Assembly: GCF_008642355.1 (NCBI RefSeq)
Contig: NZ_CP029193.1
Span: forward strand, 5,542,001-5,606,000
DNA from: Streptomyces venezuelae
GTDB taxonomy: Bacteria > Actinomycetota > Actinomycetes > Streptomycetales > Streptomycetaceae
Length of the DNA: 64,000 nt
Reading direction: 5' to 3'
How positions within the stretch are numbered: the stretch's first letter is position 1; every line of letters starts with the position of its first letter. Position numbers and translations under genes: made by a program. Positions 2,774 through 40,097 of the stretch are shown here, in pieces. The notes below the pieces were generated by a model, which had not been told where the DNA came from, searched no databases, and saw nothing but the letters and a program-made list of their open reading frames with translations.

Positions 2774-2792
2774 CCGCGAAGGGGACGTGGGG

Positions 2793-3560: not shown

Positions 3561-3593
3561 TCCAGCGCGGCTGATGCGGAATTGCATTTATCG

Positions 3594-3609: not shown

Positions 3610-3634
3610 GCAAAATGTATTCCGGTAAACCGCC

Positions 3635-3662: not shown

Positions 3663-3706
3663 GAATTCCTCTTTCGGATGCGAGTCGTGCGAGGTGCAGG
3701 AAAAAC

Positions 3707-5183: not shown

Positions 5184-5199
5184 CTGGTCCTTGGACCAG
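5184..5199. promoter_or_regulatory. Palindrome CTGG-N8-CCAG upstream of the LuxR gene
   Basis: CTGGTCCTTGGACCAG is a 16-bp inverted repeat with perfect 7-base arms, placed 99 bases before the regulator start and just upstream of an A/T-rich stretch (5209-5224) that could hold a -10 element (TAAATA, 5219-5224). The symmetry centre is about 40 bp from the implied start point, a usual position for an activator. The same CTGG-N8-CCAG frame recurs at 6016-6031 before the first PKS gene. It is not a terminator: no T-run follows on either strand in the right order. Confidence 0.45.
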
Positions 5200-5298
5200 T
5201 ACGGCGCTCAAAAAAATCTAAATAGGCCGGTGCGTTCTTTTTCGGTGGGTGAAATATGCGCAACGAAAAGAAGGCCCGATCAACGGGGGGTCTTCAAG

Positions 5299-21100: not shown

Positions 21101-24100
21101 AGGACAGCCCCGCCGCCGTCACCGGCGCCGTCCCGGCCGTCGGAGCGGGCGGGCTCGCCCTCGTCTTCTCCGGGCAGGGCTCCCAGCGCCCCGGCATGGG
21201 CCAGGAGCTGTACGGGCGGTACCCCGTCTTCGCCGAGGCCTTCGACGCCGTGTGCGCCGCGGTCGACGCGCACCTCGACGGGTACGCCGAACACCCCCTG
21301 CGCGACGTCGTGTTCGCGCCCGAGGAATCGCCGCTCGCACCGCTGCTGCAGCAGAGCATGTACACCCAGACGGGCCTGTTCGCCCTCGAAGTCGCCCTCC
21401 TCGAACTGCTCAGGGACTGGGGAGTGACCCCCGGACACGTCATGGGCCACTCCCTCGGCGAGATCACCGCCGCCTACGCGGCGGACGTCCTGTCGCTGCC
21501 CGACGCGTGCGCCCTCGTCGCGGCCCGCGGACGCCTCATGCAGGCCCTGCCGGAGGGCGGGGCGATGGTGGCCGTCGCGGCGGGCGAGGAGGAGACCCGC
21601 GCGTACATCGCGGAGGCGGGCCTCGCCGACGCCGTCGGGATCGCCGCCGTCAACGGGCCGCAGGCCGTCGTCGTCTCCGGCGACGAAGCCGCCGCGCTCG
21701 ACGTCGCCGACCACTTCCGGGGCACGGGCCACCGCGTGCACCGCCTCGCGGTCTCGCACGCGTTCCACTCGCACCGCATGGACGCCATGCTCGACGAGTT
21801 CGCCGACGCGCTCTCCGGCCTGACCTTCAACCCGCCCCGCATCCCCGTCATCTCGAACGTCACCGGCGGACCGGTCGACGCCGAGCGCCTGTGCACCGTC
21901 CAGTACTGGGTGGAGCACGTCCGCGGCGCCGTCCGCTTCGCCGACGGCGTGCGCGCCCTCGCCGAGCACGGCGTCCGCGCCTTCCTTGAGGTCGGCGCCG
22001 ACGCCGCCGTGACCCCCATGGCGCACGCCACGCTCGACGAGTGCCTCGGGGACGACGGCCACGTCGCCGTCGCCACCCTCAAGTCCGGGCAGGACGAGGA
22101 CCTCGCCCTGACGCGGGCCCTCGCCGAGACGTACGTGACCGGCACGCCGGTGCGGTGGCACCGGCTGCTGGCGGGTGGCCGCCCCACCGAACTGCCCGGC
22201 TACCCGTTCGCGGGCCGGCGCTACTGGCAGGACGCCGCCACCTCCACCGTCGGCATCCGGGCCGCGGGACTCACCGGCACCCGGCACCCGCTGCTCGGCG
22301 CCGCCGTCCACCTGCCCGACGGACAGACGGTGCTGACCGGGCGCATCCTGCCCGGCGCCCACCCGTGGCTCGCCGACCACGCGATCGGCGGCACGGTGCT
22401 GCTGCCCGGCACCGCCTTCCTCGACCTGGCCCTGCACGCGGGCGCCGAGACGGGCTGCCCCGTCGTCGAGGAACTCACGCTGCAAGCCCCGCTGTTGCTG
22501 CCCGCCGACACCGCCGTCTACCTCCAGGTGATCGTCGGCGCCGCGGACGCGACAGGGCGCCGTACGGTCACCGTCCACTCCTCGTCCGCCCCGGCCTCCG
22601 GCACCGAACCGCAGGTCCAGCACGCGACGGGCACCCTGACCGCCACGCCCGCGCACCCCGGCGACGCGGGGGAGCCGGTGCCCGCCGACGCCGAGCGCAT
22701 ACCGGTCGACGGCCTCTACGCCGACCTGGCCGCGCGCGGCTACGGCTACGGGCCCGCCTTCCAGGGCCTGCGCACCGCATGGCGTACGGCCGACGCACTC
22801 TACGCGGAGGCCGAACTCCCCGCGCAGCCCGGCACGTTCGGCATCCACCCGGCGCTCCTCGACGCCGCCCTGCACGCCGTCACCCTCGGCGTGCCGTCCC
22901 TGCCCGGCACGGACGGGCCGCGACCGCTGCTCCCGTTCTCGTGGACGGGCGTCACCCTGCACGCGTCCGGGGCCGCGGTGGTACGGGTCAGGCTCACCGC
23001 CACCGCCGACGGCGCCGTCTCCCTGACGGCCGTCGACACCGCGGGACAGCCCGTCGTCACCGTGGACGCGCTGCTGCTGCGGCCGATGGCCGCGGTCGCG
23101 GCGCCCGGCGCGGACGGCGGACTCCACCTGCGCTGGCGTCCGGTGGCCGTCCCGGAGACCGCCGGGGCACCCGGTTCCGGTGTCACGGTGACCGAGGTGG
23201 GGCCAGGGGGCGCGGCAGAGGGCGAGGGTGACGTGCACGCCCGGCTCTCCGAGGTGCTCGTGCGCGTACAGCGCTTCCTGGCGGAAACGACCGCCGAAGC
23301 GTCCGACGACGGTGACGAACGGCTCGTGGTCGTCACCCGCGGCGACATGATGGGCGTCCCCGACCCGGCGACCGCCGCCGTCTGGGGGCTGATCCGGGCC
23401 GCCCGGTCCGAACACCCCGGGCGTCTGCTGCTCGTCGACGTCGACGCCCGCACCGCCCGTTCCGCCGACGCCGTCGCGGCGGCCGTCGCCACCGGCGAAC
23501 CCGAGATCGCCTGGCGCGACGGGCAGGCGTACGTGCCCCGCCTGAGCCGCACGGCTCCCGACCTGCTCGTACTGCCGGAGGACGCGTCCGAGTGGCGCCT
23601 GGAGACGACCGGCGAGGGCGCGGGTTCCGGGGGTTCCGCGGATACCGCGAGTTCTGCGGGTTCCGTCGGCTCCGCGGGTTCCGCGAACGTCGGCGATCTT
23701 GCTGTCGTACCCGTCGTCTCCGCGGCCCCCCTCGCCCCGCACGAGATCCGCGTCGCCGTCCGCGCCGCGGGCATCGGCCCCGACGACCTGACCGAGAGCG
23801 GCCGGCCCGTCGGCGTCGAAGGCGCCGGAATCGTGACCGAAGTCGGCGCGGAGGTCACGGCACCCGCCGTGGGCGACCGCGTCTGGGGTGTCTTCCCCGA
23901 GGGCGGCGCGGCCGCCAGGACCGCCGTCACCGACCACCGCTCCGTCGCCCGCCTGCCGAAAGCCCTGACCTTTGCGGCGGCAGCGGCGGCGGCGACCCCG
24001 TACCTCGCCGCATGGCACGCGCTGGTGGACGGGGGCGGGCTCACGGCGGGGCAGCGGGTGCTGATCCACGCGGCCGCGGACCCCGTCGGTATCGCCGCGG

Positions 24101-26064
24101 TCCGCATCGCCCGGCACCTGGGCGCCGAGGTGTACGCGGCGTCGCCACCCGCCGCCCACGACGCCCTGCGCGACACCGGCCTCGACGCGACCCACCTCAC
24201 CGGGCCGGAGCCCGGCGACATCGCCACGCGTGTACCGGCCGGCCTCGACCTCGTCGTCGACCCGGTTCTCGACCCGCACCGCGGCACCGGCGCCGAGGTG
24301 TCGGCGGCCCTGCTGCTCGCCGCCGACGGCCGGTACGTCACCGTCGACGCGCGGGCCGCGGTCACCGCCATCGACGCCGGGCGGCGGCACGAGATCCTCA
24401 CCGAACTCGCCGGACTGCTCGACTCCGGAGCGCTGCCCGCGCTGCCGTTCACGGCGTACGACATACGGTCCGCCACGGAGGCGTACCGCGGCTCCCGCAC
24501 GGCGACCGCCTCCCACAGCCGCTCCGTCCTCACCGTCCCCCGCCCCATCGACCCCGACGGCACCGTCGTCCTCACCGGCGCGAGCGGCACGCTCGGCCGG
24601 CTGGTCCTGCGCCGTCTGGTCGCCGAGCACGGCGTACGCAACGTCCTGCTGCTCAGCCGCAGCGGGACCGAAGCCCCCGGCGACCTCCTCGACGTCCTGG
24701 ACACCCTGGACGTACGCGACGACGGCCTCCGTATCCGCTCCGTGGCCTGCGACGTCGCCGACCGCGAGCAGCTCGCCGCGGCTCTCGCGGGCATCCCCGC
24801 CGAGCATCCGCCGACCGCGGTCGTGCACACCGCGGGCGTCCTGGACGACGGGATCCTCGCGTCCCTCACCCCGGAGCGCCTCGCCACCGTGCTGCGCCCG
24901 AAGGCGGACGCCGTACGGGCCCTGCACGACGTGACCGCCGACGCGGACCTCGCCGCCTTCGTGGTGTTCTCCTCGGTCGCCGGAGTCCTCGGCTCGGCGG
25001 GGCAGGCCAACTACGCCGCCGCCAACGCCTACCTGGACGCGTACGCCGCCCGCAGGCACGCCACCGGAGCCCCCGCCGTCTCCGTCGCGTGGGGCCTCTG
25101 GCAGGAGACCAGCTCGATGACGGCCGGCCTCGGCGCCGCCGACCTCGGCAGGATCGCCCGCACCGGACTGCTGCCCACCACCACCGAGGAGGGCCTCGCC
25201 GCCTTCGACCTGGCGCTCACCGCGGCCACACCGCACCTCGTCCCGGTCCGCGTCGACACCGCCGCGCTGCGGACGGCCGACACCGTGCCGCCGCTGCTCA
25301 GGGACCTGGTGCCCGCGCCGCAGCGGAGGGCCGCGGAGAGCACATCGGACACACCCAGCGTGTCGGGTACGGCGACGACGCCCGCCGAGTCCCTGGAGAG
25401 CAGGCTGCGCGGCCTCACCGCCGAGCAGCGCACCGCGCTCCTGCTCGATCTCGTCCTGGCGGACGTCGCCCAGGTGCTGGGACACGGCGACCCGCGCGGC
25501 ATCTCCGCCGACGGGGCGTTCCGCGACCTCGGGTTCGACTCGCTGACCGCGGTGGAGCTCCGTAACAAGATCACCAACCGGGTCGGCGTGAAGCTCAGTG
25601 CGACCGCGGTGTTCGACCACCCGAGCCCGCGCGCTCTGGTCGACCACCTCGCCACGAAGCTCGCCCCGGCCCCGGCTTCCACCCCGGTCCCGACACCGGC
25701 CGCCGAAGAGCAGCCCGGCTACGAGGGGATCATGGCCGACCTCGCCCGGATCGGCGCCAGGCTGAACGGGCTGCGGCTCACCGGCGGCCAGCGCGCCGCC
25801 CTCGCCGAGACCGTCCGCGGCCTGACCGAGCCGCCCGCGCACGGACACCCCGTCCCCGCCGACGACGACGAACCGGCATCCGCGGAGCCCTCCGCGGACC
25901 TGGCCGCCGCCTCGGCCGCGGAGGTCCTCGACTTCGTCACCAGGAACCTCGGCATCTCCATCACGGGCGACGCCATGACGGGCGACGCCGGCACAGGAAT
26001 GACCGGCACAGGGACGACCGGCACAGGAACGACGCCCGACACGTACGCCACCGACCAGAGTTGA
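6124..26064 (+). CDS. Type I modular polyketide synthase: loading module plus extension modules 1-3
   Basis: 6,646 residues in one reading frame. Order: KSQ-AT-ACP (loading), KS-AT-DH-KR-ACP (module 1), KS-AT-DH-KR-ACP (module 2), KS-AT-DH-ER-KR-ACP (module 3), then a C-terminal tail of about 130 residues with a helical stretch suited to a docking domain. Each ACP has its serine for phosphopantetheine and modules 1-3 have intact KS cysteines. ATG 6124 is used although no ribosome binding site precedes it; GATACT (6112-6117) lies 6 bases before it, so a leaderless message is possible. Large parts of modules 1 and 2 are nearly identical in DNA. The next PKS gene follows after 10 bases, so one long operon is expected. 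The four modules are described separately. Confidence 0.97.
6172..9050 (+). other. Loading module KSQ-AT-ACP
   Basis: The ketosynthase has Gln176 where the active-site Cys should be (DAAQASS instead of DTACSSS), the hallmark of a KSQ domain that decarboxylates a malonyl-type unit to make the starter; its two histidine motifs (HGTGT, NLGH) are kept. The AT has nucleophile Ser626 in GHSFGE and, at residues 725-728, NAAH where malonyl enzymes have HAFH and methylmalonyl enzymes YASH, so the starter (acetate from malonyl, propionate from methylmalonyl, or another) cannot be called. ACP serine is Ser934 in LGLDSV. No reductive domains are present. Confidence 0.9.
9139..14300 (+). other. PKS extension module 1: KS-AT(methylmalonyl)-DH-KR-ACP
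   Basis: KS Cys1179 in DTACSSS. AT nucleophile Ser1641 in GHSQGE with specificity motif YASH at 1738-1741: methylmalonyl-CoA. DH catalytic His1944 in [10 protein letters not shown] (HxxxGxxxxP) and Asp2114 in HPALLDAAL, both present. KR has the Rossmann motif TGASGALG, B-type marker Leu2457-Asp-Asp, Ser2501 and Tyr2514. ACP Ser2684 in LGFDSL. The expected product is an alpha-methyl, alpha-beta-unsaturated (probably E) extension. The stretch between DH and KR is the KR structural subdomain, not an ER. Confidence 0.93.
10768..11590 (+). repeat. Near-identical methylmalonyl-AT segment, copy 1 (module 1)
   Basis: DNA coding for the AT of module 1 is almost base-identical to 15955-16790 (module 2) and 27728-28540 (module 4). 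The three copies use many T-ending and TTG/TGT/GTT codons, unlike the GC-ending codons around them, so they share a recent common source and have been copied between modules by conversion or duplication. Confidence 0.85.
14359..19435 (+). other. PKS extension module 2: KS-AT(methylmalonyl)-DH-KR-ACP
   Basis: KS Cys2919. AT Ser3370 in GHSQGE and YASH at 3467-3470: methylmalonyl-CoA. DH His3673 in [10 protein letters not shown] and Asp3841 in [12 protein letters not shown]-type motif Leu4169-Asp-Asp and Tyr4226. ACP Ser4397. The layout equals module 1 and long blocks are almost base-identical to it, so it should install a second methyl-branched trans double bond, giving a conjugated diene with the unit from module 1. 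Confidence 0.93.
15955..16790 (+). repeat. Near-identical methylmalonyl-AT segment, copy 2 (module 2)
   Basis: Second copy of the AT block. Near its 3' end it has its own variant (GLLGAGHR) where copies 1 and 3 share NLLQAGHR, so copies 1 and 3 exchanged sequence most recently in that part. Confidence 0.85.
19499..25660 (+). other. PKS extension module 3: KS-AT(malonyl)-DH-ER(degenerate?)-KR-ACP
   Basis: KS Cys4633. AT Ser5110 in GHSLGE with HAFH at 5212-5215: malonyl-CoA. DH His5419 in [10 protein letters not shown] and Asp5580. An ER-like domain spans about residues 5816-6140, but its cofactor motif reads [11 protein letters not shown] (5982-5992) where active ERs have HAAxGGVGxA, the usual LNFRDVL segment is IGPDDLTES, and the GKTD-type segment is VDARAA. 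KR B-type Leu6240-Asp-Asp and Tyr6297. ACP Ser6473. If the ER is dead the unit is an alkene; if active, it is saturated. Confidence 0.88.
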
Positions 26065-26074
26065 GAGTGAGTTC

Positions 26075-29000
26075 ATGCCCACCGAGAACGAACTGCTCCA
26101 ATACCTCAAGGCGGTCTCGCAGGAACTGCACGCCACACGCGGGCGGTTGCAGAGCCTGGAGGACCGTCGCAACGAGCCCGTGGCGATCGTCGGGATGAGC
26201 TGCCGACTGCCCGGCGGCGTGTCCTCGCCGGACCACCTGTGGGACGTCGTCCTCAAGGGCGAGGACATGATCGGCACCTTCCCCGCCGACCGCGGCTGGG
26301 ACGTCGACGCCCTCTACGACCCGGAGCCCGGCAACCCCGGCAAGACCTACACCCGCTCCGGCGGCTTCCTGCACGACGCGGCGGACTTCGACCCGGCCTT
26401 CTTCGGCATCACGCCCCGCGAGGCCCACGGCATGGACCCGCAGCACCGCCTCATGCTGGAGGCGTCGTGGCAGGCCCTGGAGAGCGCGGGCATCAACCCG
26501 CAGACCCTCAAGGACACCGCCACGGGCGTCTTCGCCGGGTCCTTCCACCACGACTACGACCCGGGCGGCGGCAGCGTCGGCAGCCTCGTGTCCGGACGCG
26601 TCTCCTACGCGCTCGGACTCCAGGGCCCCGCCGTCACCGTCGACACGGCCTGCTCGTCGTCGCTGGTGGCCCTGCACCAGGCCGTGCAGTCGCTGCGCGA
26701 CGGCGAGTGCTCGCTGGCCCTGGCAGGGGGCGTGACGGTCCTGTCGACGCCCGGCGTCTTCATCGAGTTCTCCCGCCAGCGCGGCCTCGCCGCCGACGGC
26801 CGCTGCAAGTCCTACGCCACCGCCGCCGACGGCACCGGCTGGGGCGAGGGCGTCGCCGTACTGGCCCTGGAGCGTCTGTCCGACGCGGAACGCAACGGCC
26901 ACCGCGTCCTCGCCGTCGTGCGGGGCAGCGCGGTGAACCAGGACGGCGCGTCCAACGGCCAGACCGCGCCCAACGGCCCCGCCCAGCAGCGCGTCATCCG
27001 TGACGCCCTCGCCTCGGCCGGGCTGACGACCGCGGACGTCGACGTCGTCGAGGGCCATGGCACCGGCACGACCCTCGGCGACCCCATCGAGGCGCAGGCG
27101 CTGCTCGCCACGTACGGTCAAGGGCGGGACCTGGAGCGGCCGTTGTGGCTCGGCTCGGTCAAGTCCAACATCGGTCACACGCAGGCGGCGGCGGGTGTCG
27201 CGGGCATCATCAAGATGGTCCAGGCGATGCGGCACGGCGTCCTGCCCAGCACGCTGCACGTGGACGAGCCCTCGCGCCACGTCGACTGGACCGAGGGCCA
27301 GGTCAGGCTCCTCACGGAGAACCGCCCGTGGCCCGAGGGCGACCGCCCGCGCCGGGCCGGCGTGTCGTCCTTCGGCTACAGCGGGACGAACGCGCACGTG
27401 ATCCTGGAGGCCGTGGCGCCGGTCGAGGAGGGTGCGGACGCGGGTGAGGCGCCCGGCTCTTCGGTGGTGCCGTGGGTGCTGTCGGCCCGGAGTGAAGTGG
27501 CACTCGCGGAGCAGGCGGAGAGGCTGCTGGCCCGGCTCGACGAGGGCGGGCTGCCCGGTCTGCGGGACGTGGGCCACACGCTGGCGACCGGACGCGCGGT
27601 GTGGGAGCACCGTGCGGTCGCACTCGGCAGCGATGTCGATGAACTGACAGCAGCGCTCGGTGAGTTGGCGGCAGGACGTGAGGCGCCGTCTGTCGTGTCC
27701 GGGCGCGCCGCGGCCAACGCCTCCGGTGCGGTGTTCGTGTTCCCGGGGCAGGGTTCGCAGTGGGTGGGGATGGCGCGGGAGTTGTTGGAGTTCTCGCCGG
27801 TGTTTGCGTCGCGGATGGCGGAGTGTGGGGCTGCGCTTGAGCCGTTTGTGGATGGCTGGTCTTTGCTGGATGTGGTCCGGGGGGACGACGAGGAGGCGCT
27901 GCGTCGGGTTGATGTGGTGCAGCCGGTGCTCTTCGCGGTGATGGTGTCGCTGGCGGAGTTGTGGCGTTCGTTGGGTGTGCGGCCTGCTGCTGTGGTGGGG
28001 CATTCGCAGGGTGAGATCGCTGCGGCGTGTGTCGCGGGTGCGTTGTCGTTGAGGGATGCGGCGCGGGTGGTGGCGTTGCGGTCGCGGGCGATTGTGCGGC
28101 TTGCGGGCAGGGGCGGGATGGTGTCCGTTCTGGCGCCGGAGGCGCGGGTTGTGGGGCGGTTGACGGCGGGCTTGCAGGTGGCTGTGGTCAATGGTCCGGA
28201 GCAGGTGGTGGTGTCGGGTTCGCCTGGCGAGCTGGATGCGTTCGTGGCTGCTTGTGAGGGTGATGGGGTGCAGGTGCGGCGGGTTGCCGTGGATTACGCC
28301 TCGCATTCGCCGCAGGTCGAGGAGTTGCGGGATGAGCTCTTGGATGTGCTCGCGCCCATCGAGCCTCGGGCTGGTCAGGTGCCGCTGTTCTCGACGGTGA
28401 CCGGTGATGTGATCGATACCGGGGTGATGGACGCGGAGTACTGGTTTACGAATCTGCGTCAGACCGTTCGTTTCGATGCTGCGCTGCGGAACCTGTTGCA
28501 GGCCGGGCATCGTGTCTTCGTCGAGTCCAGCCCGCACCCCGTGCTCCTCGGCGCCGTCGTGCAGAACGCCGATCACCTCCGTACAAAGGGCGTGACCGCC
28601 GTCGGCACGCTCCGGCGCGACGAGGACGAGAAGGCCCAGCTGCTCCGTGGCCTCGCCGAGGTGTTCGTCGCCGGTGTCGACGTGGACTGGTCGCCGTGGC
28701 TCGCGGGCGGCGCACTCGTCGAGCTGCCGACGTACGCCTTCCAGCGCCGCCGGTACTGGCAGCCCGCCGCGGCGGCATCCGCCGATGTCGGCTCCGCGGG
28801 TCTGGAAGCCGTACGCCACCCGCTGCTCGGCGCATCCGTACCTCTCGCCGACAGCGATGACGTCGTCCTCACCGGGCGCCTGTCCCGTGCCGCGCAGCCC
28901 TGGCTCGCGGACCACGCGGTCTTCGGCACGGTCATCCTGCCCGGCACCGCCTTCGTCGAGCTGGCCCTGCGCGCCGCCGACGAGGTGGGCTGCGACACGG

Positions 29001-32000
29001 TGCGGGACCTGACGCTCACCGCTCCGCTGCGGCTGCCCGAACAGGGCGAGGTCGACGTACAGGTGCAGGTGGGCGGCGCGGACGGCGCCGGGCGCCCCCT
29101 CGACATCTATGCCAGACCGCGCAGGTCCGACGGTTCCGGCCCGTGGACCCGGCACGCGTCCGCCGTCCTGACGACCGGCGGCACGGCAACGGACACGTCC
29201 GGCGACAACCCGCTGTACGGCGCCACTTGGCCGCCCGCGGGCGCCGAACGGCTGGACGCCGCCGCGCACTACGACACGATGGCGGACGCGGGCCTGGAGT
29301 ACGGGCCCGCGTTCCAGGGCCTCTCCGACGTGTGGCGGCTCGACGGCGAGATCCTCGCGCAGGTCGCCCTGCCAGGACGGCAGGCGGAGGAGGCGCGGCG
29401 CTTCGGCGCCCACCCCGCACTCCTCGACGCCGCGCTGCAGGCCGCCGCCGTGGACGGCCTGGACGGCGCCACGCCGCTGCCGTTCTCCTTCGGCTCGGTC
29501 ACCCTGCACAGCCGGGGCGCGAACGAGATGCGGGTACGCATCGTGCCCACCGGCGACGACACGTTCACGGTGGAGGCGGCCGACCCGTCCGGTACGCCGG
29601 TCGCGCGCATCGACTCCCTCCTCGTACGCCCGGTGGCCGCGGGCGATCTCGCCGCCCCGGACAGCAGCACGCAGTCGCTGCTCTCCCTCGCCTGGTCGCC
29701 GTACGCGGCGGACGACGGCGGGACGGGCTCGGCCGCAAACCCGGGGCCGGAGGTGTCGGACGTCACGGTCCTCGACGTCGCCACAGCCGCCGCCTCCGCC
29801 GTCGGTGACACCGACGCCGCCCGCGCGCGAGCCCTCCTCCAGGACACCGTGGTCCGGGCGCAGGAGTGGCTGGCGCGGGACCGGCCCGCGTCGGCCCGGC
29901 TGGTCGTGCTGACCCGGCACGCCGTGCTCACCGGAACCGAGGCGCCCGACGCCGTACTCGACCTCGCCCAGGCCGCCGTGTGGGGTCTCGCGAGGGCGGC
30001 CCGCGCGGAGAACCCCGGCCGCGTGATCCTCGTGGACACGGACACGGACACGGACACGGACACGGACACGGACACGGGCACGGGCACGGGCGCGGACACG
30101 GGTACGCAGGCCGCAACCGGCGGGCTCGACCAGGGCGACCTCGCCGCCGTACTGCAGTCCGCGGCGCCCGAACTCGCCCTGCGCGGCGGCCAGTTGTACG
30201 TGCCGTCCCTCCGTCCCGAAGACGCCCAGGCCGCTCCCGGTACCAGCCCCGCCGCCGCCCTCGGTACCGGCACCGTCCTCATCACCGGCGGCACCAGCGG
30301 CCTCGGCGCGCAGGTCGCCCGGCACGCCGCGCGGCTCGGCGCCCGGCACCTCCTCCTGCTGTCCCGGCGCGGCCCGGCGGGCGAAGGGGCGGCGGCCCTG
30401 AGCGACGAGCTCACCGCCTCCGGCACCCGGGTCACCGTCGTCGCCTGCGACGTCGCCGACCGCGAGCAACTGGCGCGCGTCCTGAGCCAGTTGCCGCAGG
30501 AGTATCCGCTGACCGCCGTCATCCACGCCGCGGGCATACTCCGTGACGCCGTCGTCGAGTCCATCGACACGGACAGCCTGAACGCCGTGCTGCGGCCGAA
30601 GTCCGACGCCGTCTGGAACCTGCACACGCTGACCGAGGGCACGGAACTCTCCGCCTTCGTCGTCTTCTCCTCCCTCGCCGGTGTCATCGGGGGCGCGGGC
30701 CAGGGAAGTTACGCCGCCGCCAACGCGTTCCTCGACGCGCTGATGCGGCAGCGCCGCCGTACCGGACTGCCCGGACTCTCCCTGGCCTGGGGCCTGTGGG
30801 CCGAGGCGACCGGCATGACCGGACACCTCGGCGACGCCGACCTGGAGCGGATCAACCGCGGCGGCATCGCCGCGCTCTCCACCGAGCAGGGGCTCGCGCT
30901 CCTCGACGCGGCGCTCACGCGGGACGCGGACGACGCGCTGCTCCTGGCAGCCGCCCTCAACGAACCCGTCCTGCGCACCACCGACCCCGCGCTGCTGCCC
31001 CCGCTCCTCGCGGGCCTGTACCCGCCGCGCCGCCGCCTCGCCGGGTCCCGCAAGGAACGTCGGGCGGACACCGGCGGACGGCTCTCCCTCGACTCGCGGG
31101 ACGCGGTCGTCGACCGGCTGCGGTACCGGTTCGCGGCGACGATGGGCTTCGACACCGAGGAGCTCGACACCGGCGCGGCACTCGTCGGGCAGGGCCTCGA
31201 CTCCGTGATGGCCATGCAGATCCGCAGCCTGATCGAGGCGGACTTCGGCCAGTCCCTGCCGATCGCCTCGCTGTTCAACGGCGCGAGCGTGGACTCCATC
31301 GCCGACCAGCTGATCGCGGGCGCGGAAGGCGCCGTCGAGGCCCCGCCGGAGGGCGCCGCCGCCACGGACCCCGTCGAGGACGCGGAGATCGTCCACGATG
31401 TCGTACGCCATCCGGCCACCCGCGACGTCGTACGTCTCCTCCGCGCCGAACAGCACGGCACGCCCGGTGTCACCCACCACATCGGACTCGCCGTGCGCCT
31501 CACCGCGCCGACGACCCCGGAGCGGCTCGCAGAGGTCGTCGCCTCGCTCGCCGCCCGGCACGCAGCGCTGCGCACCGCGATCGTCCAGGACGCCGACGGC
31601 GTACAGCAGTTGGAGGTACGCCGCACACTCGACGGCGACCTCGTGCGGTGGTCGGACGTCGCCGAGGACACCGACGTGGACGAACGGCTGTGCGCGCTGA
31701 TGGAGCCGCCGTTCGACCTGGCCACTGCGCCGCTGTGGCGGTTCGAGCTGCTCGCGCGTCCGTCCGGCGAGCAGGTCCTCGTGTTCGGCGCGCACCACGC
31801 CGTGTCCGACCTGGCGTCGCTGATGCTCGTGGCACACGGCCTGGGCGCCGGGCTCGCGGGGGCGGAGCCGACGGCCGCGGTCACCAACCGCGACATCGAC
31901 CTGCTGCTGAAGGCGCAGAGCGGGCCCACCGCGCAGACCGGGGCCCCCTCGCAGTCGGACGACTGGCGCGCGGACTTCGCGGGTGCCGGACGGCTCGACC

Positions 32001-34546
32001 TGGAACTGGCCGCGCCGCGTCCCGCGCAGCGGTCGTACCGCTCGGCCATGCACCTCGCCGAGCTGCCGAAGGAGCTCCAGGAGCGGGTGGAGGGCCGGGC
32101 CAGGGCGCTCGGCATCACGCCCGCCGCGTTCTGGCTCGGCGCGCTCACCGCGCACCTCGCGCGGCTGCGCGACCGGGACCGGTTCGTCCTCGCCGTACCC
32201 GTGGACACCCGCATGCACGTGGCGGCGCTCGACGCCGTCGGCTACTTCGGGCTGCCGATCCCGTACGCCGCGCAGGTCGACGCCGACGACACCGCCGAGG
32301 ACGTCCTGCGACGCACCGACAGCCGGCTCAGCCGGGTCCTGGAGCGCGGCGTCACGTTCTTCGACGCGATGTCCGCGCTCGTGCAGGAAGGCCTGTACCG
32401 CAAGGACGCGCCGCTCGTCGAGGTCTACTTCAACTACATGCCGACGCAGGCCGGAGCGGCGGAGGGCCTGCACATCGTCCCGGCGGGCACCGGCTACTCC
32501 GACCTCGACCTGATGGTCACGGTGATGCCGGGGCTCGGGAAGGTAGGACTGGAGTACAACACGGACGTACTCGACGACGTGTCCTGCGCGTCGCTCGCGG
32601 AGGACTTCCTGCGGCTGGCGGAGCGGTTCGCGACGGACGCGACGACACCGGCGAGGCGAGCCGCACTGACCGGTGCGCCCGTATCCGCAGCACCGCTGAC
32701 CGCCCCCGACCCCGCGTCCGCAGCGGCCGAGACCGTCCCTGAACCTGTACCCGCAGCGACCCTGACAGCTCCGGACTCCGCGTCCGCAGCGACCCTGACC
32801 GCCCCGGACTCCGCGTCCGCGGCAACTCTGACCGCTCCGGAATCCGCCTCCGCGGCAACCGCAACCGCCCCCGACCCCGCGTCCGCAGCACCCCAGCCCA
32901 CCCCCGGACCCGCCCCCCACATCGCTCTCGCCGCGACCTTCGCCCTCGGCAACCTTCCGGCCATGCTGTCCTTCGCCGTGCGGGAAGCGGGGGTCGAGGG
33001 CGGACCCTTCGACGTGGCGGAGGCGCCGTACCACCAGGTGCTCGCGAGCCTGCACGACCCGGGCAGCGTGTTCGTGCAGGGCGCGACGGCCGCAGGGCTC
33101 GTCCTGCTGCGCCCCGGCGACCTCACCCGCTTCGCGGACGACGGAAGTGGACCGGCGGACGCGCTGCTCGACCAGCTCGCCGACGAGTACCCGGCCGCAC
33201 TGCGCTCCCTCGCCGAGCGCACCCGCAAGCCGCTCGTCGTCGCCTTCCTGCCCGAGAGCGCCGACGACGGACGCCTCCACGACTGGGAACGACAGGTGAC
33301 GGGACGCCTCGCGGACGTCCCCGGCATCGCCGTCCTGCCCTCCGACACGTGGACCGGCGACGACTACCCGGTGGCGGACGTGTTCGACGCCCACACCGAC
33401 GCGATGGCGCACCTGCCGTTCCAGGACGAGTTCCAGGCACTCGTGGCGCTGCGCCTCGCCGACGTACTCCAGCAGGTGTGCCGACGGGCACCCAAGGTGA
33501 TCGTCGTCGACGGCGACGAGACGCTGTGGAGCGGCGTCGCGGGCGAAGTCGGCCCGGAGAACGTCGACTTCACCGGGGCGCGTGCCCTGCTCGCCGCACG
33601 GCTCCTCCAGTGGCGGGAGGCGGGCGTGCTGCTCGCGATGGTCTCCAACAACGACGAGGAGACCGTGCACCGCATCCTCGACCGGCCCGACAGCCCGCTG
33701 CACCGCGAACACTTCGCCGCGATCTCTGCCGCCTGGGAACCCAAGTGGACCCGGATCATGCGGATCGCCGACGATCTGCGGCTCGGCCTGGACAGCTTCC
33801 TCTTCCTCGACGACAACCCCGTCGAAATCGCCGGTGTGCGCGCCCAGTTGCCGGAGGTGCTGTGCCTGACCTGCCCGAGCGCGGACGAACTGGCGGAGTT
33901 CGTCGCACGGTTGTGGCCGATGGTGCCGCGGGCGGCGACGGCGGAGGACTCCGCGCGGGCCGACTTCTACCGGCAGGAGCAGGTGCGCGACGAGGCGCGG
34001 GCCCAGCTCGGCTTCGCCGAGTTCCTGGAGAACCTGCGGCTCGAACTCGACATCGAGCCGGTGAACGAGGAGACCGCTGAGCGCACGGTCCAGCTCAGCA
34101 GGCGCACCAACCAGTTCAACCTGCGGCCCCGCCCCCTGGACGACGCGGAACTGGCGCGGCTGTGGCAGAGCGGGGAGGTGTGGACGGCGACCGCACGGGA
34201 CCGCTTCGGCGCGTACGGGCAGATCGGCGTCCTGGCCGTCGCCGTCGACGGTGACGCGCTCGAAGTCGTCGCCTGGATGATGAGCTGCCGCGTGCTCGGC
34301 CGGGGCGTCGAGGACCGGCTCCTGCAGTGGCTCGCCGACCGGGCCGAGGCGCACGGCTGCACCACGGTGCGGCTGATCGCCGAGAACACGCCCCGCAACA
34401 TCCCCGCCCGACGCCTCGTGTCCCGCCTCGGCGGCGGCGACGTCGACGCGCCACGCCTGGAGGCGGCGGTGGGGCTCGCACACCTACGGGAGTTCCGTTC
34501 CTGGGACCCCGCATCCGATCATGCAGCGGAGGACAGCAATGCCTGA
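26075..34546 (+). CDS. Type I PKS module 4 with C-terminal condensation and FkbH-like domains
   Basis: 2,823 residues. An N-terminal coiled-coil docking helix (residues 1-30) is followed by KS (Cys193), AT (Ser644 in GHSQGE, YASH 741-744: methylmalonyl), DH (His947, Asp1118), KR (Leu1489-Arg-Asp, Tyr1546) and ACP (Ser1710 in GLDSVMA). Then comes an NRPS-type condensation domain (about 1775-2190) with intact HHAVSD (His1907, His1908, Asp1912). After a repeated Ala/Thr/Pro linker comes an FkbH/HAD-IIIC domain (about 2281-2810) with DGDETLW (Asp2479, Asp2481) and the acyltransferase cysteine in [10 protein letters not shown] (Cys2738). FkbH enzymes make glyceryl-S-ACP from 1,3-bisphosphoglycerate. 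I infer that the C domain joins the finished acyl chain to that glyceryl group. No adenylation domain is present. Confidence 0.94.
27728..28540 (+). repeat. Near-identical methylmalonyl-AT segment, copy 3 (module 4, second PKS gene)
   Basis: Third copy, in a different gene. Identity with copy 1 stops abruptly near 28538: up to the SSPHP codons the bases agree, then the same Pro-Val-Leu peptide is coded with GC-ending codons (CTCCTCGGCGCC). This marks a recombination breakpoint. Confidence 0.85.
30035..30106 (+). repeat. GACACG hexanucleotide tandem repeat inside the PKS gene
   Basis: Seven perfect GACACG units (30035-30076) pass into GGCACG, GGCGCG, GACACG and GGTACG variants. They encode an Asp-Thr then Gly-Thr run from residue 1321, in the linker of the KR structural subdomain. 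The unit is six bases, so length changes stay in frame; the tract is a likely polymorphic microsatellite. Confidence 0.85.
32752..32890 (+). repeat. 33-bp tandem repeat encoding the C-FkbH linker
   Basis: About four to five imperfect copies of an 11-residue unit (consensus [11 protein letters not shown]) join the condensation domain to the FkbH-like domain. The flexible Ala/Thr/Pro-rich linker would let the two domains reach the same carrier protein. Copies differ mostly at third positions. Confidence 0.8.
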
Positions 34547-37073
34547 GGCGGCCGGCGGCACGAGTCGCAACCGCAGTGTCAACCGGCGACCGGAGGAGGA
34601 GGCGATCGAACGGCGGGGCCCCGGCCGCAGCGCAGCGGCCGACCTCCTGGCCCACTTCCGGAAACCGCGGCCCGCACCTGCGGCGCCGCAGCGGTCCGCC
34701 GGGGCGACGCGGCCCGCGAGCTCTGCGGGGCCCGTCAGTCCTGCGCGGCCCGCGCAGGCCGGCTCCGCCACCGAGACGACGCAGCCGGTGGGTCCCTCGG
34801 GGTCCGCGAGTGCCGCGCAGGACACGCACGGCGTGCAGGGCGGCGATGCCGCCGGGCAGCGGACGTCCGAGGCGACGCGGCCCCTGGGTTCCCCGGGGCC
34901 CGCGCACGGCGGGCAAGCGGCGCACGGCGCGCCCGCCGCGCCGGTCTCCGGACCCGTCGACGGCCCGCCCGCGCGGACCGTCGCCGCGGTCGCCGCCGAC
35001 ATCGCGGCCCGCGCCGCCCGCTTCCTGCCCGGCGGTACGCCCGACCCCGAGACGGACCTGTTCGACGCGGGGCTGTCCTCCGTCGACGCGGTCGAGCTCG
35101 TCGCGCTGATGGCGCGGGAACTCGACGTACAGCTGACCCTCGACGACGTCTTCGCCGACGCCCGCCCGCGACGCCTGGCCCAACGCTGGGCCAAGGCCCT
35201 GGGCCTGCCCACGACGGTGTCGCCCGCGCCGGGAGCCCTCGCGAGCGGGGACCCCGCGTCCGGGATACCCACGCACGCGGCCTTCCCGCCCGCGGCCCCC
35301 GCGCCCGGGACCTCCGCGCAGGGCGCCCCCGTGCCCGGAACGCCGGCGCCCGGAGCCTCCGCCCCCGGCACCCCCGTGCCTGGGGCCCCCGCACCCGCGG
35401 CCCTCGGGCCTGGGACTCCCGCGCCCGGCGTCTCCGTGCCCGCGGTGCCCGCACCCGCGGCCCCCGCCCCCGGCACCCCCGTGCCCGGGGCCCCCGAATC
35501 CCCGGCCCCTGAGCCTGGTGCCTCCGTGCCCGGGGCCGCCGTACCCGCGGCCCCCACGGCGAGCGCGGCAGCCCCCACGCCCGCGGCCCCGGCCCCACCC
35601 GCAGCCCTCACCCCCGCGACCCAGCCCCCCACAACCACCCCCACCCCGACGTCCCACTCCCTTCCCCCCGTCGTAATCCCAGCCCCAGACACCGACGCCG
35701 CCCACGAGGACCTGGAGGTCATCCTCGGAGATCTCGCGCTCGCCGACCGCCTGCCGTTCAGTCGGCAGGCCGACCCCGTCCCGCCCCGCCGCATCCTGCT
35801 CACCGGTGCCACCGGGTACCTCGGGAGTCACCTTCTGCTCGATCTGCTGCGGCAGGGCGACGCCCACGTCGTATGTCTCGTGCGCGCGGCCGACGACGCC
35901 GCGGCGGAGCGGCGGCTCGCCGACGCGCTCGCGAGTTTCGACCAGCCGTGGACCGCCGAGGTGCGGCGCCGGGTCACCGTTCTCGCCGCCGACCTGCGGC
36001 AGCCGTTCCTCGGGCTCGCCCAGGACATGTGGGAGGGACTCGCCCAGGAGCTGGACTCGATCGTCAACGTCGCCGCCGCCGTCGACTTCCTGCGCGGCTA
36101 CCCCTCCCTGCGCCAGACCAACGTGCTCGGCCCGCTCGCCCTCGCCGAACTGGCGATGACGGGACGAGCCAAGCCGCTGCACCACATCTCCTCGGTCGCC
36201 GTCTTCAACGAGGTCGGCATCGAGAAAATGGGCGAGGACGACCCGGTCGCCCACATCGACCGGCTCTTCGCCGGTTACGACAAGTCGAAGTGGGCGGCGG
36301 AAGCCGTGCTGCGGCGCGCCCGCGAGCACGGGCTCACCGTCACGTTCCTGCGGCCCGGCGCGATCGGCGGACACACCCGCACCGGCGTGTACAACCCGCG
36401 TGACCTCAGCACCGGTCTGATCGGCGCGTTCTCCCGGTACCGGACCGTACCGGCCTTCAAGTTCATGAACCTCGCCCCGGTCGACTGGATCAGCAAGGTG
36501 ACGGCCGCCGTCGTCTTCGACCCCGCCGCGTGGGGCCAGAACTACAACGTCACCGGCCGCGCCGAGACCCTGCCGCAGCTGGTGAAGGACATGAAGCTGG
36601 CCGGCATGAACGTCCGCGTGGCCAACTGGCGCGAGTGGCGGGACGATCTCATCGCGCGGCACGCCGCCGACCCCGTGCCGGAGCTCGACTTCCTGATCCG
36701 CATCCTGCGCAGCCCCACCGCGATGAAGCTCTTCGAGGCGCTGATGTTCGGCCCCGAGGCGGGCTCGGAGCGCACCGACCGGTTCGTCGCCCGGAAGCGG
36801 CTGCCGGAGGCCGAACGGTACGGGTCGCAGGCCCAGTTGAAGGCGTTCGAGCGGATGGCGAGGGACGGTGTCGCCCGGCTTCCCAGCCGCGAGGACCCGC
36901 CCTATCTGCAGTTCCGTGAGCGGACCAAGGGGCGGGTCGGGCCCGTCGGCGAGGACCGTGACTCCAAGTGCAGGATGGCGCTCACCCTCTCCATCGCCAG
37001 CATGTACCAGGTCGTACGCCACCGGAAGATCGACGTACGCGGCGAGGTGTTCTGCGAGCGGCTGCACCCGTAG
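34539..37073 (+). CDS. ACP-thioester reductase protein (reductive release); C-terminus interrupted by TAG
   Basis: 844 residues from ATG 34539 (GGAGGA at 34528-34533, 5 bases upstream), overlapping the PKS stop by 8 bases. A carrier domain (about 135-215) has GLSSV with Ser181 as the phosphopantetheine site. A roughly 150-residue Ala/Pro/Gly-rich linker follows. Then comes an NAD(P)-binding thioester reductase domain of the carboxylic acid reductase/Lys2 type (about 400-740): TGATGYLG (Gly423, 426, 429), Tyr580-x3-Lys584 and FLRPGAIGG. Such domains free the acyl group as aldehyde or alcohol. The carrier is the probable acceptor for the glyceryl group made by the FkbH domain. The last 35 residues look like the first half of a beta-rich domain that continues in the same frame beyond the TAG. 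Confidence 0.92.
35215..35690 (+). repeat. Ala/Pro-rich repetitive linker of the ACP-reductase gene
   Basis: Codes for about 155 residues made almost only of Ala, Pro, Gly, Val and Thr in short irregular repeats of the APGxPxPGAPAP kind. It separates the carrier domain from the reductase domain and is likely disordered. Its repetitive, very GC-rich DNA is prone to slippage and assembly error. Confidence 0.75.
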
Positions 37074-37082
37074 CCGCTGACC

Positions 37083-37574
37083 GTGGAGGCGGGCGAGATC
37101 TGGGTCCGTCCGGACGAGGGCGTGCCGCTGCGGCACGGGAGCGACCACCCGCTGCTGCGCTACCGCCTCGTCCTCGTCGACCGGGACGGCGGCCGCTGGT
37201 GGCTGGAGGGCTGGAAGACGGCCCGCGCCAGCCGCGACTTCTGGAAGCAGACCCGCACCATCGACGTCACCATCGGCCGCGAGAACGAACCCGCGAGCCT
37301 CGAGGGTGTCGTCAAGGTTCCCGGCAAGAGCTACGTGCCCGACCAGATCGACGGCATCGAGGTCGACCCGCGCCTCACCCCGCAGGAGCAGCGCCTCGCC
37401 AAACTCGCCTGGCTCTCCTGGTTCTTCGTGCAGGTCGGCATGGGCCTCGCCGAGCCGTCCCTGCGCGCCGTCGCCGAACTCCTCGACCTGCGCAAGGACG
37501 CCATCGACCGCGACCAGGACAAGCTGCAACGCAAGATCAGGAAGCTGATGATCAAAAGGGAGCAGACCCGATGA
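37083..37574 (+). CDS. Continuation of the beta-rich domain downstream of TAG (separate ORF or split gene)
   Basis: 163 residues from GTG 37083, only 9 bases after the TAG of the preceding gene and in the same frame. The opening TVEAGEIWVRP...LRYRLVLVDRDGGRWWLEGWK...FWKQTRTIDVTI resembles the second half of the beta-domain found at the C-terminus of cholesterol-oxidase-like GMC oxidoreductases, while the end of the reductase protein ([13 protein letters not shown]...KIDVRGEVF) resembles its first half. A helical segment follows (residues 95-160). No ribosome binding site is visible, so it depends on re-initiation, on read-through, or on a sequencing error at the TAG. It overlaps the hydrolase gene by 4 bases (ATGA). 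Function unknown. Confidence 0.6.
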   Translation: MEAGEIWVRPDEGVPLRHGSDHPLLRYRLVLVDRDGGRWWLEGWKTARASRDFWKQTRTIDVTIGRENEPASLEGVVKVPGKSYVPDQIDGIEVDPRLTPQEQRLAKLAWLSWFFVQVGMGLAEPSLRAVAELLDLRKDAIDRDQDKLQRKIRKLMIKREQTR

Positions 37575-38674
37575 CGACGCTGAGGCCCCTCCACCACGCA
37601 CTCGGCGCCCGCGTCGAGGACATCCCCTTCACCGCCTCCGACGGCACCCGGCTCGGCCTCACCCGCGTCGCCCCCGAGGACGGCTCCACCGACCGCCCGG
37701 TCGTCCTGATCCTGCACGGACTGACCGCGTCGGCCGACATGTTCACGCTCCCCGAGACCCGCAACCTCGTGGACGTCCTGCTCGACGCGGGCTACGAACC
37801 GTGGCTCCTGGACTGGCGGGGCAGCTGCCGGCTGCCGTACAACGAGGGCCGGGTCCGCTACACCTTCGACGACGTCGCGCTCTACGACATCCCCGAGGCC
37901 GTTGCGCTGATCAAAGAACGTATCGACGGACGCGAACTCCTCGTCGTCGCGCACTGCATCGGCGCGATGTGCCTGTCGCTGAGCATGGCCGCCGGGCTCG
38001 TGCCCGGTCTGTCCGGTGTCGTCGCGCAGGGCGTGTTCCTCACCCCGAAGATGTCCTGGAAGACCCGCGCCCGCCTGCACTTCGGCGGGGAGCTGCTGCG
38101 CTCCCGCTTCGTCAACATCCCCACCGACTTCAAGAAGGTCGGCCTGTGGTCGAAGCACTCGCTGATCTTCGCGGAGGTGTCGCTGGGCGCCGAGTGCAAG
38201 GACCCCAACTGCCAGATCCTGCACAACGATTCGTGGGGGGTCGGCGGCTCGCTCTTCGAGCACGACAACCTCCACGAGGTCACCCACGACCGCCTCGCCG
38301 ACCTGTACGGCACGGTGCCCATGTGGATCCTGCCGCACCTGCGCAGCATCGAACTGGCGCACACGATGATGCGGTACAACGACGGCGACGGCCGCTACGA
38401 CGCGCTCCCGAAGAACGCGCTCGACGAGGCGGGCTCGTTCGACACCCCGCTGATGCTGCTCTCCGGCAGCGACAACCGCTTCTGGTACGACTCGAACGAG
38501 ATCTGCCACGACGTCCTGAAGCGCCGCTACCCCGAGATGGACGTCCGGTACGTGGAGGTGCCCGGCTACGGCCACCTCGACGCGTTCATCGGCCGCAACG
38601 CCGCGCTCGACGTGTTCGGCCACATCGTCGACTTCCTGGACGAGTGCCGGGTCTCCGATGACGTCCGCGCCTGA
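37571..38674 (+). CDS. Alpha/beta hydrolase with cysteine nucleophile
   Basis: 367 residues of alpha/beta-hydrolase fold: oxyanion region LILHGLTASADMF, nucleophile elbow VVAHCIGAM (Cys in place of the usual Ser), an acidic region LLSGSDNRFW, and catalytic His in VPGYGHLDAF. The Cys elbow and the sequence YEPWLLDWRGS are those of hydrolases that occur fused to, or next to, GMC oxidoreductases carrying the same beta-domain as the preceding ORF. The gene order reductase, beta-domain, hydrolase therefore mirrors a known multidomain layout. A Cys nucleophile also suits acyl transfer (as in polyhydroxyalkanoate synthases), so it could hydrolyse, transfer or cyclise the released product. Confidence 0.8.
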   Translation: MTTLRPLHHALGARVEDIPFTASDGTRLGLTRVAPEDGSTDRPVVLILHGLTASADMFTLPETRNLVDVLLDAGYEPWLLDWRGSCRLPYNEGRVRYTFDDVALYDIPEAVALIKERIDGRELLVVAHCIGAMCLSLSMAAGLVPGLSGVVAQGVFLTPKMSWKTRARLHFGGELLRSRFVNIPTDFKKVGLWSKHSLIFAEVSLGAECKDPNCQILHNDSWGVGGSLFEHDNLHEVTHDRLADLYGTVPMWILPHLRSIELAHTMMRYNDGDGRYDALPKNALDEAGSFDTPLMLLSGSDNRFWYDSNEICHDVLKRRYPEMDVRYVEVPGYGHLDAFIGRNAALDVFGHIVDFLDECRVSDDVRA

Positions 38675-40097
38675 CCGCCCTGCCGCCCCGGCGCCCGGCA
38701 CCCGCCTGCTCATGCCGGTCATCCTGCTCGCCATCTTCACGGTGCCGCTGTCGGTCTCCGGCACCGCCGTGTCCCTGGGCGACATCGCCGACGACCTGGG
38801 CAGCTCGTCGGTCGGCGAGCAGTGGGTCCTCAACGGCTACAACCTGACGTTCGCCTGCTCCACCCTCGTCTGGGGGTCCGTCGCCGACATCATCGGGCGG
38901 TGGCAGGCCCTGTTCTTCGGGCTGCTCACGTTCGGCGCGGGCTCCGCGCTCAGCCTCTTCGCGGGCAACTACTGGGTCCTGGACGGGGCCCGGCTGCTCG
39001 CGGGCGCGGGGGCCGGGGCGGTCTTCTCGGTGGGCACGGCCGTGGTCTCGTCGAACTTCGAGGGCGAGCGGCGCACCCGCGCCTTCGCCCTCCTCGGGTC
39101 GGTCGCGGGCCTCTCGCTCGCGTTCGGCCCGTCCCTGTGCGGCCTGCTCACCCAGCTCGCGGGCTGGCGGCTCGTCTACGGCTTCCAGCTCGCCTGCCTG
39201 GTCCTCGCCTGCGCGGGCATGCCGCTCATCCGCCGCGCCGCCGCCCACGAGAAGCGGCGCGCGGCCCGCATCGACTGGCCGGGCGCGGCCCTGTTCTGCA
39301 CGGCGACCACCGTCACGCTCGGCGGCCTCGCCCTCGGCTCCGCGACGGGCTGGGCCTCCGCGCCCTTCCTGCTCTGCACGGCCGTCGGCATCGGCTGCTA
39401 CGGCCTGTTCGCCTGGCGCGAGTCCACCGCGCCCAACCCGCTCCTGAGCCTGGGCACCCTGCGCAGCAGGCGGTTCTCCGGCATCACGCTGGTGGTCGCG
39501 GTGGCGTCATTCACCTTCACCAACGCGGTCGCCTACCTGCCGGTGTTCTTCCAGGGCGCGTATGGCGCGTCGGCGGGAGCCAGCGGCGCGTACCTCATGT
39601 TCCTGACGCTGCCCGTCCTCGTCGCGCCGCTGATCGCCGCCCGCCTGACCGCGCGCGGCACACCCGCCCACACCATCTTCACGTGGAGCATCGGGCTGCT
39701 GGTCGTCGGCCTCGTCCTCGCGGGCGCGACCGCCTCTCCCGGGCTCGTCTGGATGACGCTGCCGATGGTCGCCGTCGGCATCGGGTTCGGACTCCAGGCG
39801 GGCCTCGTCGACGGCGAGGCGCTCGCGCACGTGCCGCCGGAGGAGGCGGGCATGGGGGCGGGCTGGATCAACACGGTCCGGCTCGGCAGCGAGGCCATCG
39901 CGGTGTCGCTCTTCGGCTCGCTCTTCGCCAGCTTCGCGGGCGACGCCGACGACGCGTCGCGCGGCGGGTTCGCCGCCATCACCATCGGCTCCACGCTGTG
40001 CGCGGCGGTGCTCGGCGTCGTCTCGGTCCTCCTCATGCGACGGCCGGGCCCGGCGGCCCCGGCCGAGGAGCCGAGGGCGGCGGACCACGTCGCCTGA
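38658..40097 (+). CDS. MFS exporter, DHA2-like 14-helix drug/proton antiporter
   Basis: 479 residues with about 14 hydrophobic helices in the arrangement of the DHA2 (QacA/EmrB) drug:H+ antiporter family. The loop between helices 2 and 3 (GSVADIIGRWQALFFGLL) is the motif A equivalent, and LDGARLLAGAGAG (motif B-like) follows. ATG 38658 lies within the end of the hydrolase gene (17-base overlap), so it is translated with the cluster. It is the likely exporter of, and self-protection against, the cluster product. Confidence 0.92.
   Translation: MTSAPDRPAAPAPGTRLLMPVILLAIFTVPLSVSGTAVSLGDIADDLGSSSVGEQWVLNGYNLTFACSTLVWGSVADIIGRWQALFFGLLTFGAGSALSLFAGNYWVLDGARLLAGAGAGAVFSVGTAVVSSNFEGERRTRAFALLGSVAGLSLAFGPSLCGLLTQLAGWRLVYGFQLACLVLACAGMPLIRRAAAHEKRRAARIDWPGAALFCTATTVTLGGLALGSATGWASAPFLLCTAVGIGCYGLFAWRESTAPNPLLSLGTLRSRRFSGITLVVAVASFTFTNAVAYLPVFFQGAYGASAGASGAYLMFLTLPVLVAPLIAARLTARGTPAHTIFTWSIGLLVVGLVLAGATASPGLVWMTLPMVAVGIGFGLQAGLVDGEALAHVPPEEAGMGAGWINTVRLGSEAIAVSLFGSLFASFAGDADDASRGGFAAITIGSTLCAAVLGVVSVLLMRRPGPAAPAEEPRAADHVA

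Follow-up and report, generated by a model that had tools for sequence, protein, structure and literature searches.

How does a modular polyketide synthase (PKS) release its product when its last module ends not in a thioesterase but in a condensation (C) domain and an FkbH domain? The question is raised by a gene cluster in a 64,000-nucleotide stretch of the Streptomyces venezuelae genome (contig NZ_CP029193.1, positions 5,542,001 to 5,606,000, hereafter the window), in which the terminal synthase protein, PKS2, is followed by a carrier protein (CP) domain fused to a thioester reductase (TR) and then by an alpha/beta hydrolase (HYD) with a cysteine nucleophile. We propose, with a probability of about 0.6, that the C-FkbH end of PKS2, the CP-TR protein with its C-terminal domain (X) and the hydrolase form a release cassette that would load a glyceryl unit onto the carrier, esterify it with the finished chain and set the ester free by reduction. 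The parts of this cassette, their order and their motifs are jointly conserved.

Profile searches and motifs confirmed the domain reading given in a preliminary description of this DNA. The C domain of PKS2 carries an intact HHxxxD motif (HHAVSD, residues 1907-1912, nucleotides 31793-31810), and the FkbH domain scores 347 bits against TIGR01686, well above the curated cut-off of 147, with D2479, D2481 and T2483 of its DxDxT motif (DGDET, residues 2479-2483, nucleotides 33509-33523) and Cys2738 all in place; we take DxDxT to be the phosphatase motif and the cysteine to be the transferase residue of FkbH proteins. This domain is the sole TIGR01686 match that a profile search found in the whole 8.02 Mb single-contig genome. 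The region between the C domain and the phosphatase part of FkbH was assigned as NEX by its position, the name being borrowed from PMC12304814. The gene after PKS2 does encode a carrier protein fused to a thioester reductase (PF00550 and TIGR01746), with the CP serine in GLSSV (35070-35084), the NADPH motif GATGYLG (35805-35825) and YDKSK (36276-36290); the nearest solved structure to the TR by sequence is MxaA (4u7w, E-value 1e-52). The open reading frame (ORF) spans 34521-37073 and 850 amino acids (aa), with a likelier start at 34539, as in an 844-aa database copy and in one of the related loci described below (L003). Chance or misread domains were ruled out, since the profile scores exceed the cut-offs. 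Thus, the contents of the unit described previously at 31380..37073 stand, but its end does not, since 37073 is the last base of an in-frame TAG and the hydrolase gene still follows. The coordinates of all features are collected in Table 1.

Table 1. Features of the release cassette and of the surrounding cluster in the window. G014 is a relative with a cluster of the same gene order.
Feature	Position	Strand	Size or support	Remarks
PKS2	26075..34546	+	2823 aa; Pfam and NCBIfam	docking-KS-AT-DH-KR-ACP-C-NEX-FkbH
Condensation domain (PKS2)	31481..32668	+	PF00668, 90 bits	residues 1803-2198
NEX region between C and FkbH phosphatase part (PKS2)	32900..33490	+	tblastn match in 70 loci with upstream DNA	
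FkbH glyceryl transferase/phosphatase (PKS2)	33488..34441	+	TIGR01686	residues 2472-2789
CP-TR protein as encoded here	34539..37073	+		ORF opens at 34521; ends at in-frame TAG, 37071-37073
Carrier protein domain (CP)	35028..35186	+	PF00550, 39 bits	presumed glyceryl acceptor
Thioester reductase (TR)	35793..36788	+	TIGR01746, 249 bits (cut-off 213)	
X domain	36876..37574	+		predicted eight-stranded beta-barrel plus helices; split here by TAG at 37071
HYD, alpha/beta hydrolase	37571..38674	+	PF00561, 39 bits	Cys nucleophile
PKS1	6124..26064	+	6646 aa	motifs read from translation (no Pfam run)
Type II thioesterase	2787..3560	+	PF00975, 171 bits	same position in G014 cluster
Cytochrome P450	3707..4939	+	PF00067, 124 bits	same position in G014 cluster
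LuxR-type regulator	5191..5931	+	PF00196, 71 bits	same position in G014 cluster
MFS (major facilitator superfamily) exporter	38658..40097	+	PF07690, 124 bits	gene after HYD

The genome search for this domain order that the preliminary description had proposed was run by scanning named genomes with an alignment of 27 CP-TR proteins, picked from 120 listed homologues and including the window's own. The scan matched 159 stretches, of which 128 encode a relative, and 80 loci were kept and read. As the query was built from cassette proteins, the result covers close CP-TR-X relatives and not all reductases. The order recurs throughout: a C-FkbH stretch lies ahead of CP-TR in every one of the 70 loci whose DNA extends upstream (in the remaining ten, the sequence starts no more than 91 bases ahead of the match), each with its HHxxxD motif and with the two aspartates, the threonine and the cysteine of FkbH intact. 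The CP serine is kept in 71 of 71 covered loci, and both GxxGxxG and YxxxK of the TR in 80 of 80, where the frame from TR into X is also uninterrupted. HYD follows in 79 of the 80 loci, the last of which ends 37 bases past its X match, and the nucleophile, found in the window in AHCIGA (37949-37966), is a cysteine in all 79 covered loci. Named loci also occur in Nocardia, Amycolatopsis, Actinomadura, Kitasatospora, Actinacidiphila and Catenuloplanes.

We also ran the reverse test, searching NEX-FkbH in 121 genomes of the window's genus at E ≤ 1e-60. It matched in 21 genomes, 19 of them at 58% identity or more and two distantly (36-37%), and 17 of the 19 are exactly the genomes that harbor X (17 of 121), three draft assemblies (G033, G061 and G081) having the two on different contigs. 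The two close genomes without X are G001, where a contig end cuts it, and G063. The G063 locus (G063:C105:49000-56300, L122) holds NEX-FkbH followed by a CP, with another CP-like stretch on the opposite strand, and is either a rearranged cluster or an assembly fault. In a phylum-wide sample, where seven first-look candidates were scored per listed genome, X was found in three of 346 genomes, namely that of the window and two others of its genus.

Pairwise distances among 65 loci and the window (ketosynthase (KS) on 2142 of 2145 pairs) give correlations, all inflated by shared ancestry, of 0.97 for FkbH-TR, FkbH-HYD and TR-HYD, 0.94 for X with each of these three, 0.85-0.89 for KS with FkbH, TR, X and HYD, and 0.80 for KS with C. 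In five loci (L014, L040, L055, L059 and L060) the cassette lies behind a very different KS, at a distance to the window of 0.64-0.68 versus 0.32-0.35 for FkbH, TR and HYD, suggesting that the cassette can couple to other synthases. No acyltransferase (AT) domain was found in the scanned proteins of L040 and L059. In L059, the one locus of the five whose KS was read through, this domain keeps its cysteine and has ANGTA at the position of HGTG, which we take to be the expected motif; apparently without the histidine, this KS seems to be non-elongating, and we therefore rejected the idea that the five loci are a subfamily feeding beta-keto chains.

One of the 80 loci, L015, is from Streptomyces sp. 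Tue6028, the foxicin strain. Two of its ORFs, of 945 aa (9968-12805) and 259 aa (14003-14782), agree exactly in length with FoxBIII and FoxEII as published; its hydrolase frame (12802-13938) encodes 378 aa, as FoxEI does. FoxBIII was published as a peptidyl carrier protein-thioesterase (PCP-TE) protein (PMC5318452); it matches the NAD_binding_4 reductase family at 184 bits and has a carrier domain, and the profile scan returned no thioesterase-family match for it. Judged by these matches, the published assignment looks wrong, and FoxBIII looks like a CP-TR protein. Since foxicin-type [..ACP-C-FkbH]-[PCP-..] clusters were published in 2017 (PMC5318452), and the TR and C-terminal part of the window protein recur in at least 119 other database proteins, the earlier suggestion that the arrangement was unknown is not borne out. 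Among the papers listed by searches of the open-access PubMed Central (PMC) literature, we recognized none that describes a C-FkbH / CP-TR cassette or FoxBIII as a reductase. foxBII-foxBIII-foxEI resemble the window in their terminal order, ACP-C-FkbH / CP-TR-X / hydrolase (ACP, acyl carrier protein), and disruption of foxBII abolished foxicins (PMC5318452). However, the foxicin cluster begins with a lone ACP, continues with only two modules and includes an adenylation (A) domain gene (foxBI) and sugar genes (PMC5318452), whereas in the window loading is of the KSQ type, four modules extend the chain, a P450 gene is present and an A domain is missing. For release, the foxicin authors proposed a glyceryl carrier, but with the chain passing to an amino acid bound there and being set free by a thioesterase (PMC5318452). 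The window's CP-TR-X is 55% identical to a Streptomyces diastatochromogenes homologue.

The proposed release would proceed as follows. As inferred from its family, FkbH would take D-1,3-bisphosphoglycerate, remove the phosphate and load the glyceryl unit onto the CP of the next protein. The C domain would then transfer the completed chain from the final PKS carrier to a hydroxyl group of the glyceryl thioester, most likely O2 but perhaps O3, to give an ester, for which BurF provides a precedent with another alpha-hydroxy acid. Using NADPH, the TR would free an O-acyl glyceraldehyde by a two-electron reduction, or an acylglycerol if four electrons are spent. The 2-methyl-2-enoyl chain of this first product would then be open to the P450 and the hydrolase, and the Cys hydrolase, perhaps together with the X barrel, may act next on the ester or the aldehyde. 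An ester on the glyceryl carrier followed by reductive release was already put forward in the preliminary description; as both steps have published precedents, in BurF (PMC12304814) and vioprolide (PMC8949500), this mechanism remains plausible and the best reading of the domains, but it is not new in kind. The conserved hydrolase and barrel suggest further steps beyond the acyl-glyceraldehyde or acylglycerol envisaged there. More tentatively, the ester or aldehyde might be passed to the barrel and the Cys hydrolase for acyl transfer to a new acceptor or for rearrangement of the acyl-glyceraldehyde, with glycerate serving as a release handle for different PKSs; this would be undescribed actinomycete chemistry, and we consider it somewhat unlikely.

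Several observations weigh against glyceryl loading, esterification and reductive release. Foxicin A, the only product that we found linked to such a cluster through a gene disruption, is described as a hydroxy-acetamido-acylamino benzoquinone with the polyketide acyl group on nitrogen (PMC5318452), so that the acyl is borne by an amide with no glycerol ester visible in the published structure. By sequence, the C domain of PKS2 lies nearer to TomBC (E-value 5e-16) and linear gramicidin synthase than to the ester-forming SgcC5 (4znm, 1e-4), although BurF, too, is reported to group with LCL domains (PMC12304814). In G063, TR, X and HYD were not found in the 7.3 kb fetched, and in both G049 and G061 the FkbH stretch is interrupted by one stop. 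Correlations of the short CP with the other parts are lower (0.80-0.84), and the window's own copy of the TR protein is truncated. FkbH may supply a lactyl or another C3 unit rather than glyceryl, and we found no biochemistry for any cassette member in the open-access PMC literature.

The chain that would reach the cassette can be predicted from the synthase. PKS1 has a KSQ-type loading module (AT, ACP), two KS-AT-DH-KR-ACP modules and one KS-AT-DH-ER-KR-ACP module (DH, dehydratase; KR, ketoreductase; ER, enoylreductase). Its loading KS has AVDAAQASS replacing DTACSSS, which we take to mark KSQ-type loading. The AT motifs are YASH in modules 1, 2 and 4 and HAFH in module 3, presumably reflecting extender choice. 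The ER of module 3 (PKS1 residues 5841-6130) has HAAADPVG, and HPGDGAVG in the G014 relative, which is unusual compared with what we take to be the normal cofactor motif; this ER may be silent or inactive. In the last module, on PKS2, the HxxxGxxxxP motif of the DH and the Ser-Tyr-Asn motif of the KR are intact. From these motifs we predict a short, methyl-branched chain of a starter and four units with a 2-methyl-2-enoyl end.

The intact motifs of the last module bear directly on whether the TR might form a ring rather than release an open product, either by a Dieckmann-type tetronate closure like that of an R* domain or by producing an aldehyde that closes a malleicyprol-like Knoevenagel butenolide. 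The domain logic is indeed that of the C-A-T-R* tetramate synthases and of BurF, and an alpha-acyloxy aldehyde would be correctly placed for a five-membered ring. However, both routes need a beta-keto chain, which is not expected here since the KR and DH motifs of the last module are intact, making Dieckmann or Knoevenagel closure unlikely; among the related loci, the KR motif is intact in 63 of 63 covered loci and the DH motif in 61 of 64 (17 and 16 of the 80, respectively, were not covered). An R* Dieckmann domain of the fungal tetramate type also fits poorly with the intact Tyr, Lys and NADPH motif of the TR, the Tyr and the NADPH motif being kept in 80 of 80 loci, and none of the eight matches to FabH-type enzymes (ACP_syn_III_C) in the genome lies within the window. 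For BurF itself, a tetronate intermediate was tested and excluded (PMC12304814). We therefore rejected a tetronate or butenolide end, and consider ring formation by the TR very improbable. Under reductive release, the aldehyde of a non-beta-keto chain should not close a malleicyprol-type butenolide by itself.

The hydrolase invites another explanation, in which the glyceryl ester is a transit form: the Cys hydrolase would remove the acyl group from acyl-glyceraldehyde or acylglycerol, keep it as an acyl-enzyme and pass it to another acceptor, so that the final product might lack the C3 unit. This is consistent with the presence of HYD in nearly all loci and its invariant cysteine, and with its only solved relatives by sequence, gastric lipases and lysosomal acid lipase (nearest 1hlg, E-value 2e-11), which act on acylglycerol-type esters; the acyl group of foxicin A is on nitrogen, as such a transfer would require. 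On the other hand, we know of no member with acyltransferase activity, the C3 unit may sit in the foxicin ring, and the window contains none of the 60 AMP-binding domain matches of the genome and hence no such domain to supply an amino acid acceptor. We thus regard a transit ester as unlikely, and retain reductive release as the better account. A search of the strain's own genome with HYD returned the window copy only, and the structure model of HYD is poor (mean pLDDT, the predicted local distance difference test score, of 60). In L074:12397-13446 (Catenuloplanes japonicus), a stop lies within the translated hydrolase stretch.

The TAG at 37071-37073 separates the X barrel from the TR, and the pathway in this strain may be altered or off. 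The frame past the stop is open to 37574, and its translation is 82-98% identical to the twenty best matches shown, all of them C-terminal parts of TR homologues. For an intact copy of X, from Streptomyces himastatinicus, the structure model has a mean pLDDT of 78; compared by Foldseek, with lipocalin-like or avidin-like barrels in mind, X had no structural match at E ≤ 0.001. At the sequence level, neither Pfam nor the PDB yielded anything informative for the X piece, and a search of the strain's own genome with X returned the window copy only. Similar barrels and hydrolases may also occur fused to GMC (glucose-methanol-choline) oxidoreductases. Release may be broken in this strain, with the stop removing the barrel and the cluster decaying, in which case the mechanism would hold for relatives only. 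The post-stop part is present in 119 of the 120 homologues listed, the exception being the window strain's own entry, and the window's copy is the one stop-bearing X match of 18 in the 121 genomes of the genus, all 80 named loci being open. Nevertheless, PKS1, PKS2, HYD and the other named genes are open, the change looks recent as the post-stop sequence is 98% identical to the nearest homologue listed, and the TR profile match ends ahead of the stop, which may be a true mutation or a sequencing error. A decayed release system is therefore a possibility that we hold to be doubtful, though less so than a transit ester.

The rest of the cluster was delimited by comparison with the G014 relative, whose genes have the same order (TetR, thioesterase, P450, LuxR, loading and extending modules, C-FkbH, CP-TR-X, hydrolase), placing the probable limits at about 1.1-40.1 kb of the window. 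G014 has one extending module fewer, and modules 1 and 2 of PKS1 (residues 1006-2730 and 2746-4440) are 83% identical over 1726 aligned positions; together these fit a module duplication. The MFS gene has no match in the G014 cluster, and its matches (74-93% identity) directly follow HYD in five of the 80 loci (L002-L006). No sugar-metabolism genes were found among the 27 window ORFs, a part of the total, that were scanned with Pfam. Adjoining the cluster, at 40103-42301 on the reverse strand, is the gene for a ribosomal protection protein that resembles OtrA most closely, although its score of 732 bits falls short of the curated cut-off (900).

These results place what was a lone observation within a defined release system that recurs across genomes. 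Ester formation with reductive release by C/T/Red domains was already known in kind, as was the ACP-C-FkbH / CP arrangement; what is new is the two previously unmentioned parts of the cassette, the beta-barrel carried by the TR protein and the Cys hydrolase, both of which any correct foxicin-type pathway should explain. The results also correct the annotation of the sole published example, foxicin, whose reductase had been read as a thioesterase and whose C3 role was left open. Most valuable in this analysis are the revised reading of the release protein of foxicin and the Cys hydrolase, for which a full pathway has to account.

Besides the foxicin cluster, four groups of known systems can be compared with the window. 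For the vioprolide and cystomanamide synthetases, we know of no reductive release at the FkbH-loaded carrier. They resemble the window in having FkbH in the place of an A domain, and in vioprolide an ester-forming C domain links a fatty acyl chain to the FkbH-loaded glycerate; unlike in the window, the unit is introduced early in the nonribosomal peptide synthetase line and the chain is then extended (PMC8949500). Tetronate pathways differ from the window in that none of the FabH-type matches of the genome lies within it, although an enzyme from elsewhere is possible. In the RK-682 and tetromadurin pathways, FkbH-made glyceryl-S-ACP meets a finished polyketide, which requires a beta-keto chain and a FabH-like enzyme. 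MxaA, the myxalamid TR, is like the window's TR in reductive release from a carrier, presumably acting on a substrate without a glyceryl ester. PMC12304814 cites RK-682- and tetromadurin-type pathways, as well as the report that MxaA performs a four-electron reduction to the alcohol.

The closest comparison is with BurF, the malleicyprol synthase, in which a C domain forms an ester between the polyketide and an alpha-hydroxy acid on a T domain, after which the Red domain produces an aldehyde with NADPH, as supported by His, Tyr and Gly mutants, in vitro reconstitution and trapping with dinitrophenylhydrazine (DNPH) (PMC12304814). C-NEX-T-Red of BurF is like the window in having a C domain with HHxxxD between the last ACP and the presumed hydroxyacyl carrier, and Red motifs after the carrier. 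Its NEX, 244 residues between C and T, resembles the N-terminal extension of FkbH-like proteins and is coupled with other FkbH parts in 95% of orthologues (PMC12304814). BurF has no FkbH phosphatase or transferase parts, its trigonic acid is loaded by BurJ/BurH, and its beta-keto chain closes the butenolide (PMC12304814); the window, by contrast, has a complete FkbH, an expected non-beta-keto chain, a separate CP-TR protein, the X barrel and the Cys hydrolase. The authors suggest that BurF lost the other FkbH parts (PMC12304814), and the cassette described here provides the counterpart with FkbH intact. By this analogy, the arrangement in the window is what a complete form of BurF would look like.

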